Translations under genes and position numbers: made by a program
Shown here: piece by piece, positions 40,888 through 45,627 of the stretch
Layout: each line of letters begins with the position of its first letter
Position numbering within the stretch: the first letter of the stretch is position 1
The notes under the pieces: generated by a model
Databases searched by the model: none
Seen by the model: only the letters and a program-made list of their open reading frames with translations
What the model was told of the DNA's origin: nothing
DNA from: Prauserella flavalba
GTDB taxonomy: Bacteria; Actinomycetota; Actinomycetes; Mycobacteriales; Pseudonocardiaceae
Assembly (NCBI RefSeq): GCF_003202235.1
Contig: NZ_MASU01000011.1
Coordinates: 124,001-188,000, forward strand
Direction of reading: 5' to 3'
Length of the DNA stretch: 64,000 nt

Positions 40888-40987
40888 CTGTCGCACGGCA
40901 GGGGGCAAGACACGACATCTGTCGCTCGCAATTCGGGGGATGCTGATGCATAGTTGATCCACGCCACTACCACGGGAGGTGTGCGCG

Positions 40988-42268
40988 ATGGCCGATGACC
41001 TGCAGGACATCGTCGACAACCTGGCCGAGCGGCTGCAGCGGTCCGTGGCGATCGATGACCCGCACATCCGGTTGCTGGCGGCGAGTCGCCATTTCGGTGA
41101 CGAGGACGCAACGCGAGTGTCGTCGGTGCTCAACCGCTCGGTCGCCCCGCAGCTGTGCGAGCAAATCCTCGCGCAAGGCATTGCGCAGTGGACAACGCCG
41201 GGCCGGGTGATCGTGCCACTGGAGGGCACCCTGCCGCGGCTGTGCATCCCGATCCGCTGCGCCGGGTTGCTACTGGGCTACCTGTGGCTCATCGACCCCG
41301 ACTCCACCCTCGGCGATCGGGAGCAGGACGTTGCCCGGGAAGCGGCCGAGCGCGCCGGTGTGGTTTTGTATCGACAGCTCATCGTGCACGAACGCAGCAG
41401 GGCACGGCATGAGGCGATCCTGCGGGAACTCGTGGCCACCGATCGTGCCATCCGCTCCCAGGCCGTGGACGACCTTCGGGCCGAGCAACTGTTCCCGACC
41501 ACCGGCATGTACTTCCAGGTCCTCGGCATGCAGCACCAAGGGCCAGATGGCGTCGCTGCCCCGCAGACCGTCGCCTTGGAAGCCGCCGTCGAAGACGCTC
41601 AGAGCTGGATGTCGCAGCGCTCGGCAGCGCCCGCCTGCGCCCTGATGGCCACCAACAAGTCTCGAGCATGGTTGATGCTCGCCCAGCCCCAACCGCCGTC
41701 TCGCCGGGAGCTGGACACGATCTGCAGCAGACTCACCGCGCGGTTCGACCGGCTCACCCAGGACGGCGTCCAGCTCGTGCTGGGCATCGGAGGCCTCGCC
41801 CACCGCATCGAGGACATTGTCGAGTCCTATCGCCAGGCCTTCCTCGCGGTGCGCGCGGCACAGCTCGTGCCCTCTATCGGACCAGTGGCCCGTTGGGGCG
41901 CACTCGGTCCCTACCAGCTGTTGCTGAGGATGCCTACCGAGGACCTGCTCGCCGCCGCGCAGGTGCCCGCGCTCGTCGCGCTGGACAAAGAAGACGGTCA
42001 TCGTGGGCTCGTCGCCACGCTGGAGGCGTTCCTCGACAACGCCGGCGACGTCGCCCGTACCGCGCGACTCCTGAATGTCCACCGCGCGACGCTGTACCAC
42101 CGGCTCAAGCGAATCGAACAGCTCACCGGCTGCGAGCTGAGCCAGGGAGACGACCGGTTGACCCTGCACCTGGGATTGAAGCTGCGCGCCCTCGCCGCTG
42201 CCCACCGCCACGAGGCAACACCGACCACGGCCGAAGACAGGCCGACAAGAATTCGCTCGGTATCCTGA
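40988..42268 (+). CDS. PucR/CdaR-type transcriptional regulator
   Basis: A 426-aa regulator with an N-terminal sensory region (GAF-like, about residues 10-120), a GGDEF-like middle segment (about 160-290) and a C-terminal PucR HTH_30 (FLDNAGDVARTARLLNVHRATLYHRLKRIEQLTG, about 345-378). The family controls purine, amino-acid or sugar-acid catabolism. ATG 40988 has GGGAGG 8 bases upstream; GTG 40979 is also in frame. It lies between the peptidase operon and a convergent oxidase gene and may control either or both. A short fragment nearly identical to residues 20-45 occurs at 47104-47187 on the minus strand. Confidence 0.9.
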   Translation: MADDLQDIVDNLAERLQRSVAIDDPHIRLLAASRHFGDEDATRVSSVLNRSVAPQLCEQILAQGIAQWTTPGRVIVPLEGTLPRLCIPIRCAGLLLGYLWLIDPDSTLGDREQDVAREAAERAGVVLYRQLIVHERSRARHEAILRELVATDRAIRSQAVDDLRAEQLFPTTGMYFQVLGMQHQGPDGVAAPQTVALEAAVEDAQSWMSQRSAAPACALMATNKSRAWLMLAQPQPPSRRELDTICSRLTARFDRLTQDGVQLVLGIGGLAHRIEDIVESYRQAFLAVRAAQLVPSIGPVARWGALGPYQLLLRMPTEDLLAAAQVPALVALDKEDGHRGLVATLEAFLDNAGDVARTARLLNVHRATLYHRLKRIEQLTGCELSQGDDRLTLHLGLKLRALAAAHRHEATPTTAEDRPTRIRSVS

Positions 42269-42389: not shown

Positions 42390-43688
42390 TCAGCCGAGGA
42401 CCGTGCCTGAGTTCTCCGCGTTGTAGGGGCGTTTGCGGGAGAACGCGGACAGGTCGATCTCCAGTCCGGTGTGCTCGCCGACGAACCGCGCCGGTCGTTC
42501 ATCATGGTCCACACCGTTCTCGGTCTGCTCGATGATCGTCGTGAGGAACTTGCCGATGACTGGCGCGTTCTTGAACTGGTTGCCGCTGGTGCCCATGGCG
42601 ACGTAGAACCCTTCTAGTTCCGTACGGTCGTAGATGGGTGTCCAGTCGCCGGCGACGTCGTAGACGCCCACGACCCCGCGGGCGCGGTTGGGTATCTCCA
42701 ACTCCGGCAGTCGTCGCGCGGCGCGCGTGACTTGTGCCTCGAACACCGGCATCGTCGGATGCATGGTGACCGCATCCGGGTCATCCACCCACTGCAGGGG
42801 ATCACACTCCGGTTCCGTACCGCCGACCAGCAGGCCCCCTCCGACCTCGCCGCGCAGGTACGTCCCCAGGTCCATGTCCGCGATGGAAATCCCGACCCCA
42901 TCACCGGCGCGGTAACCCGCAGGAGCCGCCACATGCGCGACCTCCTGCCGCAATGGCCGGCAAGCCACCGTGAAATCCGCGCCGACGCCGGCGAGCTTGT
43001 TGATCCGCGACGACCACGGCCCCGCGGCGTTGACCACGACGCCACACGGGATCCTGCTGCCGTCGGCACACGTGACGGCCGTTACCCGGCCGTTGGCCCG
43101 CTCGACTCTGTGCACGGTCGCGTGGAATCGGAACTCGGCACCATGGGCTTTCGCGGCAACGGCCAGATTCTGCGCTGCCAGCGCGGGATCGCTCACGAAA
43201 CCCGCGTCGGGCGTGTAGACCGCGCCCAGTGTGGTCTCAGCGTTGGCCCAAAAACGGTCGTCGTCAATGCGCTTTGGGGGCCAGTACCGGCCGACATCGA
43301 TACCAGGTATCCGCTCCCTCAGATCCGCACTCGTCCACTCCTCGAACGGGACGCCGACCTCCTTGAACAGTGGCAGGTACATCGACCGCGGTGCGGCCGG
43401 GACATCCAGCATCGCCAACCCGCATCGCTCGAACCGGGCAAGGCCCCCGACGTCGCTGCCAAGGTGCTCCGCCCACGACCGCCAGGCGAAGTGCGCCTCC
43501 CACGCCGCTGAGACGCTGGCCAAGGTGGAAAAGTTGAACCGCACCACCGCGCTCGACGCGCCCGTGGAGCCATGTCCCGCGCCTCCGGCCTTGTCGACAA
43601 CCGTCACCCGCCAGCCGCGCCGAGCAAGTTCCAGCGCGATCGACGCGCCGACGACACCCGACCCGATCACCACGACATCCGTGGCCAT
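42390..43688 (-). CDS. FAD-dependent oxidoreductase of the DAO family
   Basis: A 432-aa flavoprotein of the D-amino-acid oxidase/sarcosine oxidase type. The dinucleotide-binding GSGVVGASIALELARRGWRV is at residues 9-28. GSTGASSAVVR (about 41-51) binds FAD and NAAGPWSSRI near residue 215 is typical. The C-terminal VGVYDVAGDWTPIYDRT and MGTSGNQFKNAPVIG close the flavin site. It probably oxidises a secondary or D-amino acid to an imine. ATG 43688 is preceded by GGGAGTGGG; longer upstream frames are not supported. It converges on PucR, separated by 121 bases. Confidence 0.9.
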   Translation of the reverse strand: MATDVVVIGSGVVGASIALELARRGWRVTVVDKAGGAGHGSTGASSAVVRFNFSTLASVSAAWEAHFAWRSWAEHLGSDVGGLARFERCGLAMLDVPAAPRSMYLPLFKEVGVPFEEWTSADLRERIPGIDVGRYWPPKRIDDDRFWANAETTLGAVYTPDAGFVSDPALAAQNLAVAAKAHGAEFRFHATVHRVERANGRVTAVTCADGSRIPCGVVVNAAGPWSSRINKLAGVGADFTVACRPLRQEVAHVAAPAGYRAGDGVGISIADMDLGTYLRGEVGGGLLVGGTEPECDPLQWVDDPDAVTMHPTMPVFEAQVTRAARRLPELEIPNRARGVVGVYDVAGDWTPIYDRTELEGFYVAMGTSGNQFKNAPVIGKFLTTIIEQTENGVDHDERPARFVGEHTGLEIDLSAFSRKRPYNAENSGTVLG

Positions 43689-44003
43689 AGACCCACTCCC
43701 TCGCGTTACAGCATGCGCGACGCGGACAACGCACGATGACACCCATTGTCGAGACGCATGGAGCCACGCAGCATCAAGCGTTTGTCGGACCTCTCTTGGC
43801 CAAACGACGTCATCCGTCGAAGACGTGGACCGACCCTGCGAAAGCGCTGTATCTGATCTGCAGCGCCTGCGGTCAGCCAGCACGACGGAGCGTGGCCCAC
43901 CGGCTCGTGCCGTGTCGGTGCCCGATGGGAGAGCTCTGCGACGTCTTCCTCGGCGTTCTTCCGGCATGCCGACGAGTCCGTCGGTGGACTTCTGCCCCGG
44001 CGC
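43689..44003. other. Intergenic region, no gene seen
   Basis: About 315 bases between the DAO gene start and the promoter of the dehydrogenase leader. Frames on both strands lack RBS and coding bias. It should contain the minus-strand promoter of the DAO gene; none is obvious. Confidence 0.45.
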
Positions 44004-44032
44004 TTGCCGCGTCGTGGGGCTCAAACTATGGT
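44004..44032 (+). promoter_or_regulatory. Promoter of the attenuated dehydrogenase operon
   Basis: TTGCCG (44004-44009), 17 bases, TATGGT (44027-44032): a good -35/-10 pair for the housekeeping sigma factor. The leader ATG lies 6 bases after the -10, so transcription probably begins at its first base. Confidence 0.7.
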
Positions 44033-44038
44033 AGGTCC

Positions 44039-44077
44039 ATGGTCTTCGGTTTGATCATTATGTGCGGCGCAGGCTGA
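44039..44077 (+). CDS. Leader peptide rich in branched-chain/aromatic codons
   Basis: A 12-codon ORF reading MVFGLIIMCGAG: Val, Phe, Leu and two Ile codons fall in the first seven codons, matching substrates of the valine/leucine/phenylalanine dehydrogenase encoded 148 bases downstream. The start is leaderless behind TATGGT. Its last four codons plus stop form the left arm of the first hairpin, so the position of the ribosome decides RNA folding. A regulatory role is inferred. Confidence 0.65.
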   Translation: MVFGLIIMCGAG

Positions 44078-44128
44078 CGGATCACCGCCTGCGCCTACCT
44101 CTCGTGCCATTCGCACGGGAGGTTTTTT
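44066..44128 (+). terminator. Attenuator: leader-overlapping hairpin plus intrinsic terminator
   Basis: Hairpin 1: GGCGCAGGC (44066-44074, inside the leader ORF) with GCCTGCGCC (44087-44095), perfect 9 bp. Hairpin 2: CCTCTCGTGC (44098-44107) with GCACGGGAGG (44113-44122), 10 bp with one wobble, then six T (44123-44128), a textbook intrinsic terminator. T-runs are rare elsewhere in this window. It lies about 97 bases before the dehydrogenase ATG, so most transcripts would stop unless termination is relieved. Confidence 0.75.
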
Positions 44129-44224
44129 GTTGGTCCAGCAACCCGCCCTGCTGAGACGGGGCAGTGTTGTCCGATGCCGCCGGCACCCTTCCGGCGGATC
44201 GTCCACTCCCACAAGGAGCCAAGA

Positions 44225-45322
44225 ATGCCTGGTGTTGTCGAATCCACCGAACATGAACAGGTCGTGTCCTGCCGCGATCAAGCCAGCGGACTGCACGCGA
44301 TCATCGCTATCCATTCCACCGTGCTCGGGCCCGCCCTCGGCGGAACCCGGTTCTACCCGTACGGCTCCGAAGAGGACGCGCTCAGCGACGTTCTCCGGCT
44401 CTCGCGCGCGATGACCCACAAGGCGGCGTGCGCGGGCCTGGATCTGGGTGGCGGCAAGGCGGTCATCATCGGCGATCCTGTCGAGCTGAAGACGGAGCCG
44501 CTGTTGCGTGCCTACGGCAGGTTCGTGGAATCCCTGGCAGGCCGCTATTACACGGCCTGCGACGTCGGCACGTTTCCCGACGACATGGACGTGATCGCCC
44601 GGGAAAGCCGCTTCGTGACAGGCAGGACGCGCGCACACGGCGGTGCAGGCGACTCCTCGGAACTGACCGCGTTCGGCGTCTTCATGGCGATGCGCGCGGC
44701 CGCCGCGCACACCTGGGCAACCCCGTCCTTGCGTGGCAGGCGGGTGGGGGTCGCGGGCGCGGGCAAAGTCGGTCGCAGACTGGTCGAACACCTCCTCGCC
44801 GATGGCGCATCGATCGTCGTAGCCGACGTGGCGAGCGCCGCCGTAGACCAACTCCGCAGCCACCACCCGGAGGTCGAGGCCGAGGACCCGCAGAAACTCC
44901 TCGCCCGAGACCTGGACGTCTACGCGCCCTGCGCACTCGGCGGAGTGCTCAACGACGAGACCGTCCCCGCGCTGCAGGCAGAGATCGTGTGCGGAGGTGC
45001 GAACAACCAGCTTGCCCACGCTGGGATCGCCACGCTACTGCGTGAGTACGGCGTCCTCTACCTGCCGGACTATGTGGTCAACGCCGGAGGACTGATCCAG
45101 GTCGCCGACGAGATCGCCGGCTTCAATGAACAGCGCGCCCGCGCGCGCGCTGAAAAGATCTTCGACACCTGCCAGCGCATCCTCGCCATGGCAACCGACC
45201 ACGACATCTCGCCGGCTCAGGCGGCCGACCACCTCGCCGAACAGCGCATCGCCGACATCGCCCGCCCGCGTGGCAGCTGGAGGCTGGACCAGGCCACCGC
45301 GCCGCGCGAGGTCGCGCCGTGA
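44225..45322 (+). CDS. Valine/leucine-type amino acid dehydrogenase
   Basis: A 365-aa NAD-dependent branched-chain amino acid dehydrogenase that interconverts Val/Leu (or Phe) and the 2-oxo acids. The substrate domain has [18 protein letters not shown] with the catalytic lysines (Lys66 and Lys78) and Asp113 in DVGT. The NAD domain begins [13 protein letters not shown] (about residue 185). Length matches the 364-aa Streptomyces valine dehydrogenase. AAGGAG precedes the ATG at 44225. A leader peptide and intrinsic terminator upstream imply attenuation. The next gene overlaps by 4 bases. Val versus Leu versus Phe preference cannot be set by eye. Confidence 0.9.
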
Positions 45323-45627
45323 CGAGAGTCGACTCCGAGCGCGGCACGACGACGGAGGACGCGTTCGTTCGGCAACGCCTCGGCATGCACGTCGCCGGAT
45401 TCGACGGGGTCCTGCGCGTCATCAGCCTGCTGCACCAACGGCGTTACGCAGTGCGCTCACTCCGCATGGAACCCACCGGTGTCCAGACCTGGATGCTCCA
45501 CCTCGTCGTCGACACCACCCCACCCGATGCAACGACGAACCTGCTCGTCAAAAGACTCAACCGGCTGCCAAGCACGCTCAAAGTCCGCCCCAAGGCAACC
45601 AAGGCGATCAGTTCAATCTGGGACTAG
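45319..45627 (+). CDS. ACT-like small protein coupled to the dehydrogenase
   Basis: A 102-aa protein beginning at a GTG that overlaps the dehydrogenase stop. Residues about 22-90 resemble the ACT fold of acetolactate synthase small subunits ([27 protein letters not shown], then [26 protein letters not shown]). ACT domains bind amino acids, so it may be a feedback or sensor subunit for the dehydrogenase. No catalytic acetolactate synthase gene is nearby. The last bases abut an IS481 relic, so the C-terminus may be affected. Confidence 0.7.

Follow-up and report, generated by a model that had tools for sequence, protein, structure and literature searches.

A candidate isoleucine-responsive attenuator of the cimA type upstream of an ELFV dehydrogenase gene in Prauserella flavalba

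Described attenuators and the leader of the dehydrogenase operon

The closest described systems are the attenuators of actinobacterial ilvB genes (the Corynebacterium ilvB-II motif, PMC10272879; M. tuberculosis ilvB1, PMC13236596), which, as outlined in sections of these two papers, consist of a short upstream ORF (uORF) with branched-chain codons, a hairpin (P1) overlapping the uORF, and then a terminator (P2), and whose published models include an antiterminator that excludes the terminator. According to part of PMC13236596, changing the LVVI leader codons of M. tuberculosis ilvB1 to alanine gave low, dose-independent reporter expression, whereas leader-codon changes in S. coelicolor ilvB were without effect on regulation, as told in a section of PMC1262725. 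Thus, control by leader codons has been shown in one actinobacterial case and denied in another. The relevant sections of PMC1262725 cover the ilvB, leuA, trp, trpS, cys, and leuS leaders together with ileS T-boxes, and cimA is not mentioned there. In S. lividans, RNA-seq revealed leader peptides of leuA, leuS, ilvB, trpE, trpS, alaS, metN, and thrS that are mostly leaderless, ilvB included, as reported in part of PMC8079986, and cimA and citramalate are both absent from the main text of that paper. The enterobacterial trp and thr attenuators are also comparable, as they too have a codon run for the end product and a terminator with a T run. In those systems, one arm of the terminator also belongs to the antiterminator.

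The stretch of DNA analyzed here (the window) comprises 64,000 nt of the 8.1-Mb genome of Prauserella flavalba. An initial annotation had proposed that it contains a complete attenuator with a Val/Phe/Leu/Ile leader peptide before an amino acid dehydrogenase gene. As in the ilvB attenuators, the leader has a short uORF with branched-chain codons, a P1 that overlaps it, and a subsequent terminator P2, and it would likewise be leaderless. It differs from the ilvB attenuators in its Ile-centered core, its near-invariant ACCTCTCG terminator arm, and its target, which is either cimA or a dehydrogenase gene, and it differs from the enterobacterial trp and thr attenuators in that its hairpins abut and share no arm. 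The parts of the leader and the genes around it are as follows.

40979-42268, + strand: gene for a PucR/AdeR-type regulator
42393-43688, - strand: gene for an FAD-dependent DAO-type oxidase, the nearest upstream gene, divergent
44004-44009, + strand: -35-like TTGCCG, read from the sequence, weak
44027-44032, + strand: -10-like TATGGT, 17 nt after the -35-like element and 6 nt 5' of the ATG
44039-44077, + strand: putatively leaderless leader ORF of 12 codons, MVFGLIIMCGAG and a stop codon; start, frame, and stop kept in 4/4 orthologues
44054-44059, + strand: codons ATC ATT for the conserved Ile-Ile, part of the invariant GATCATTAT (44053-44061); an Ile run is also present in cimA leaders
44066-44074, + strand: P1 left arm GGCGCAGGC, identical to the last three sense codons; from folding and compensatory changes in the wider family
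44087-44095, + strand: P1 right arm GCCTGCGCC; from folding and covariation
44097-44123, + strand: P2, the intrinsic terminator hairpin (arms 44097-44107 and 44113-44123), beginning 1 nt after P1; from folding and a terminator scan
44123-44128, + strand: terminator T run of six T, the first of them paired, then GTTG; read from the sequence and kept in relatives
44225-45322, + strand: gene for an ELFV (Leu/Val/Phe-type) dehydrogenase of 365 aa, preceded by AAGGAG; Pfam PF02812 (E 4.1e-29) and PF00208 (E 7.5e-19)
45319-45627, + strand: gene for a small ACT-domain protein, sharing 4 nt with the end of the dehydrogenase gene; Pfam ACT_5, 27.4 bits (cut-off 27)

The -35/-10 pair, the 12-codon ORF, the hairpin whose left arm lies over the last ORF codons, and the terminator with six T were all present where the initial annotation had placed them, although the promoter pair has only 8 of 12 consensus matches and a strict sigma-70 scan, which needs 9, called no promoter upstream of the leader ORF. 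TATGGT agrees with the TAnnnT reported for S. lividans in part of PMC8079986. Transcription would start at the ATG itself (44039), in which case there would be no room for a ribosome-binding site. The fold of 44030-44260 (231 nt) beats 200 of 200 shuffles (z -3.03), and a terminator scan of 43700-44300 found two sites compared with 0.4 ± 0.6 in shuffles, with P2 comprising 11 pairs. Above all, the leader is more than a chance arrangement because the ORF, P1, P2, and the T run are kept in three other species. A search of the whole window against Rfam 15 yielded only a tRNA at gathering score and no family match for the leader; 13 loci searched at E≤1 likewise gave no family at threshold on any leader. 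The single sub-threshold overlap with a leader was to the Hrs13 sRNA (L165:1819-1888, 26.3 bits with 52 needed, E 0.023) and is likely a chance match. The leader also forms the end of a 113-aa ORF (43736-44077), which we rejected as a gene because neither Pfam nor NCBIfam gave a match at E≤0.001. From 44039 to 45319, the leader ORF and the dehydrogenase lie in one open frame except for the TGA. A fusion of the two by TGA read-through was rejected as well, since one extra T shifts the frame in P. endophytica and the arrangement is thus not conserved.

The gene behind the leader does encode a protein of the amino acid dehydrogenase type, as both ELFV Pfam domains score above cut-off, while its best NCBIfam match (Trp_DH_ScyB, 354.8 bits) is under the cut-off of 600. 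The ACT-domain protein matches the NCBIfam acetolactate synthase small subunit at E 1.9e-4 with 21.2 bits, the cut-off being 119. An ACT gene follows the dehydrogenase gene in three of the four close orthologues described below (the window, L032, and L033) and is absent there in P. shujinwangii (L034). In H. alba, the ACT gene is directly followed by a near-threshold match to the Rfam sRNA Ms_IGR-7 (L033:2727-2841, - strand, 42.1 bits, gathering score 45). The oxidase and regulator genes beside the operon suggest that amino acid metabolism is encoded nearby.

The leader at orthologous dehydrogenases and before cimA

Close orthologues of the dehydrogenase (E≤1e-155, a limit of our own choosing) were found in 4 of 390 Pseudonocardiaceae genomes, these being the window genome itself, Prauserella endophytica (the nearest named relative in the comparison, with a 90% identical dehydrogenase), Haloechinothrix alba, and P. 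shujinwangii. A comparison of leader ORFs upstream of such orthologues had been proposed initially as a check, and the leader is indeed present 5' of the dehydrogenase gene in all four, where it encodes the peptides MVFGLIIMCGAG (twice), MIFGSIIINGAG, and MSLGLIIIDGAG. Invariant across the four leaders are GATCATTAT, CGGCGCAGGCTGAC, and the terminator left arm, and Gly4 of the peptide is kept via the synonymous codons GGT, GGG, and GGA. Val2, Phe3, and Leu5 vary, whereas Ile-Ile is invariant, and thus the conserved sense of the peptide is isoleucine. From the Val/Phe/Leu/Ile signal originally envisaged, the isoleucine part is therefore retained, while sensing of valine, phenylalanine, or leucine was rejected because those codons are not conserved in the relatives. 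The -35-like element of the relatives reads TTGCCA (L032), TTGCCG (L033), and TTGTTC (L034), and the -10-like TATGGT is unchanged in the first two and TACAGT in the third. In a 50-row tree, the four leader-bearing dehydrogenases form one clade with support of 100/99, the bootstrap being not fully settled, and the other two homologues encoded by the P. flavalba genome (L303 and L304) fall apart from it. Among 100 other dehydrogenase (vdh) loci scanned with the broader covariance model R2 described below, none had a match at E≤1 ahead of the gene; three of these loci (L076, L079, and L094) hold <300 nt of upstream sequence, some places are present twice, and L108-L111 were left out. Three weak matches at these loci (E 0.11 to 0.77) lie inside a gene or 1 kb beyond it.

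A BLAST search of the P. flavalba genome with the leader DNA gave nothing beyond the leader itself at an E better than 0.65; a covariance model was needed to find its relative before cimA. The model R1 was built from the four dehydrogenase leaders only and included no cimA leaders. When run on the 390 Pseudonocardiaceae genomes, R1 had matches in 281 at E≤1 (the best listed from 1e-35 to 9e-8), which is a loose figure, since this threshold permits up to one chance match per genome. For the follow-up, 77 sources were picked for listed hits or because they hold dehydrogenase leaders, with 60 regions taken around listed hits and with L131-L134 (dehydrogenase leaders again), L141, L147, and L148 left out. 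These yielded 77 matches at E 3.7e-9 or better, consisting of the 4 dehydrogenase leaders and 73 leaders before cimA, which amount to 72 distinct places because L139 and L205 are the same place. The distance to cimA was +114 to +212 nt, as located by tblastn with the cimA protein of L143. cimA encodes citramalate synthase, which catalyzes the first step of isoleucine synthesis via citramalate. The cimA gene of P. flavalba itself (G000:C13:339476; TIGR00977, 580.6 bits) has the leader MNTSRVIIIAKRAG followed by a stop codon (R1 E 2.4e-9). The likeness between the dehydrogenase and cimA leaders is accordingly shown by a model that was trained without the latter. With a putative start codon and with exceptions, the common form of the cimA leader is M/V-x4-5-V-I-I-I-(D/G/A)-(E/R)-R-(A/V)-G-stop; in L206, a premature stop codon follows the Ile run, and the window leader has Met at the third Ile position. 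The best R1 score seen outside the training set, 57.4 bits, belongs to L215 (MFYGLLIIGRRAG), which precedes cimA in a different family, compared with 54.5 bits at best among the Pseudonocardiaceae cimA leaders. By eye, a block like TGTGGCA recurs shortly 5' of the cimA leader start (e.g., L211 at about 1295-1321) and is probably the promoter of these leaders, unlike the TATGGT of the dehydrogenase leader.

The second model, R2, was built from 61 leaders (57 of cimA and 4 of the dehydrogenase), and its match on the window leader is consequently not independent. R2 matched 204 of 325 actinobacterial genomes at E≤0.001, representing 91 of 122 genera. Among 66 sources examined with R2, which were hits picked from the class-wide list plus the P. 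flavalba cimA and ilvB loci (the latter included on purpose), 61 leaders were before cimA, three before ilvB (one of them that of P. flavalba), and two before a small ACT-like gene; L217, L218, L224, L225, L227, and L228 were left out of this further scan. We also searched for cimA in 35 genomes, of which 22 had been picked for having no leader hit and 13 for having one. cimA was present in all 13 of the latter, while 17 of the 22 lacked cimA at E≤1e-100, and R2 does find a leader before cimA in the remaining five (72-92 bits). The two leaders before an ACT-like gene (L251:2031-2127 and L253:2031-2125, both - strand) belong to one other family and precede genes of 103-107 aa. Their stop codon directly follows the Ile run, and the same genomes carry the leader at cimA (L252 and L254). 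For L251, support for the ACT assignment is weak, with a below-cut-off match to Pfam ACT_4 (E 0.0037). The ilvB leader of P. flavalba (L112:1216-1326, upstream of ilvB at G000:C13:332140) reads VTPQIGLVLPKRVDA and a stop codon, looks leaderless too, and has its P1 flush against the terminator. It matched R2 with 26 bits (E 6.4e-5) and had no R1 match at E≤1; the ilvB leaders L256 and L282 match both models. In the open-access literature, we found no description of an attenuator in a cimA or valine dehydrogenase leader, which, together with the Rfam 15 results at threshold, agrees with the initial annotation that none is described for the gene family. An earlier description could exist in the subscription literature.

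Hairpin covariation, geometry, and the relation of P1 to the terminator

In the alignment of 61 leaders, 97.9% of the cells of P1 and P2 are paired. Double changes occupy 46 cells, compared with 10.7 ± 2.4 in shuffles, and seven pairs are changed on both sides. Sliding the partner strand abolishes this signal, and RNAalifold recovers both helices unaided. The P2 left arm ACCTCTCG is near-invariant, while its right arm switches between A and G as partners of U. The four dehydrogenase leaders by themselves contain no double changes, being too alike. The distance from the first Ile nucleotide to P1 is 11-14 nt in 131 of 140 leaders (12 nt in the window), even though P1 starts before the stop codon in 108 of them and after it in 32, and the spacer between P1 and P2 is 0 or 1 nt in 130 of the 139 resolved rows (1 nt in the window). 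It should be noted that these counts come from related sequences and from our own helix-picking script. Seven of the 146 rows were unresolved and dropped from the spacer count, whereas for the distance count three ilvB rows were excluded beforehand, three opposite-strand echoes were unresolved, and for L262, L263, and L266 the script seems to have taken a helix other than P1. The Ile-to-P1 distance is about the reach from the ribosomal A site to the leading edge. A 26-nt footprint centered on the codon is used in the pertinent part of PMC13236596. As judged from the aligned leaders, selection maintains the distance between the Ile codons and P1 while the stop codon moves, which is the geometry of a stalled-ribosome sensor. 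Ribosome-mediated attenuation, as initially proposed, is thus well supported at the sequence level by the conserved ORF and Ile codons, the covariation of P1, and the fixed Ile-to-P1 distance.

The description of the attenuator as complete holds for the ORF, the hairpin, and the terminator, but not for the classical overlap of P1 with the terminator, since the two hairpins abut and share no arm. In addition, neither folding nor covariation supported a mutually exclusive antiterminator, of the kind found in the ilvB models, in the four dehydrogenase leaders, the P. flavalba ilvB leader, or the 61-leader alignment, and when the 61 leaders were scanned for mutual information, the 40 highest-ranking pairs gave no third helix. 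For all positions of the ribosome edge, the optimal fold of the four dehydrogenase leaders and the P. flavalba ilvB leader retains the terminator. Loss of the terminator costs the window leader 15.3 kcal/mol with the ribosome at Ile and 11.7 kcal/mol with it at the stop (8.5 vs 6.7 kcal/mol in H. alba and 11.1 kcal/mol at both in P. shujinwangii), and the P. flavalba ilvB leader behaves similarly to that of the window. In the E. coli trp control, this cost is 9.5 kcal/mol and drops to 2.2 once the ribosome is at the Trp codons, while in the E. coli thr control it falls only partially, from 16.3 kcal/mol at the stop to 10.4 at its codons. The measure is not decisive, because thr is a true attenuator.

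In the mechanism that we propose, RNA polymerase would start at the ATG and a ribosome would load on the leaderless end. With plentiful Ile-tRNA, the ribosome would reach the stop codon and its leading edge would cover the P1 left arm, most or all of it in both stop-codon layouts, such that P1 would be blocked, P2 would form, and transcription would end at ~44128. With scarce Ile-tRNA, the ribosome would instead halt on ATC ATT with its leading edge ~12 nt further on, at the foot of P1, whereupon P1 would form and oppose P2, and the dehydrogenase and ACT genes would be transcribed. As a ribosome stalled at Ile would free P1 while one at the stop codon would cover it, P1 would report isoleucine shortage, and before a biosynthetic gene a P1 that signals shortage would have to hinder P2. 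Since P1 and P2 abut without a shared arm, we propose that this hindrance could be steric, with a helix flush against the terminator foot impeding P2 in the polymerase exit channel; our search of the open-access literature found no precedent for such an effect of an abutting helix. The start site, the ribosome stalling, the direction of the response, and the opposition of P1 to P2 are all what we infer from the arrangement of the leader.

Codon-based attenuation could also be correct with a different link between P1 and the terminator, in which the P1 loop and right arm would pair with the terminator 3' arm when the ribosome covers only the P1 left arm. The ilvB-II antiterminator is of this type, as it joins the P1 loop to the right shoulder of the terminator (described in part of PMC10272879), and in the four dehydrogenase leaders the cost of terminator loss is lowest through such pairing with the ribosome edge at nt 35-45 (8.8 kcal/mol in the window, 8.3 in P. 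endophytica, 0.7 in H. alba, and 4.3 in P. shujinwangii). However, in these most favorable settings the ribosome is already beyond the Ile codons, the terminator nevertheless prevails in all four leaders, and the 61 leaders have no covariation for the pairing, and we regard this version as unlikely. Pairing from the other end of the leader, in which its 5' end would mimic the terminator left arm and an untranslated leader would read through, is hardly credible as a general explanation. Complementarity is strong in L179, L180, L184, and L189 (z -2.6 to -4.3) and in L172 (-3.8), and z is below -1 in 25% of 76 leaders, but the mean z over 76 of the 77 leaders is just -0.30 and the window leader has +0.22. 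In L179, L180, L184, and L189, all of which are before cimA in one genus, the 5' end is complementary to the terminator 3' arm over about 10-12 pairs, and this genus may possibly have an extra antiterminator.

The strength of the terminator at every ribosome position would also suit a simple terminator shielding the dehydrogenase gene from transcription that arrives from upstream, with the ORF and Ile codons being incidental. This is very unlikely, given that conservation extends to the ORF, the Ile run, and P1, that P1 covaries, that the Ile-to-P1 distance is maintained though the stop moves, and that the nearest upstream gene, encoding the DAO-type oxidase, is divergent. The initial annotation had further considered either a reversed, tnaC-like logic, in which isoleucine excess would induce a catabolic dehydrogenase, or an enzyme working in the aminating direction. 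The reversed logic has in its favor the general view that the valine dehydrogenases of actinobacteria are catabolic enzymes, but the same leader precedes the biosynthetic gene cimA, there commonly with a V-I-I-I core, and nascent-chain sensing would usually call for a peptide longer than 12 residues. The reversal is accordingly improbable, and ordinary biosynthetic logic with an aminating enzyme is favored because the same element precedes cimA.

Significance for isoleucine synthesis in actinobacteria

Overall, we consider the leader to be a transcription attenuator of the cimA type that responds to isoleucine and precedes an ELFV dehydrogenase gene, a reading to which, judging from sequence comparison, we assign a probability of about 0.72. 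The best reading of its distribution is that the element would have been taken up by one dehydrogenase clade, which probably aminates toward isoleucine. Guilt by association suggests that the enzyme may aminate 3-methyl-2-oxopentanoate to isoleucine, because its gene is under a cimA-type leader and beside an ACT gene. More tentatively, and at somewhat less than even odds, the leaders could represent a class-wide Ile attenuator that is ancestral at cimA, in which P1 antagonizes the abutting P2 by position alone, and that moved to the dehydrogenase-ACT operon and to the ACT-like gene, marking isoleucine synthesis with the dehydrogenase as its aminating last step. The leader predicts that cimA is under isoleucine attenuation in many actinobacteria, and hence one odd leader leads to a regulon, while its presence at the dehydrogenase gives the enzyme a testable role. 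If it is true that P1 blocks the terminator without a shared strand, attenuators would need no competing structures, and searches that demand such structures will have missed some of them.
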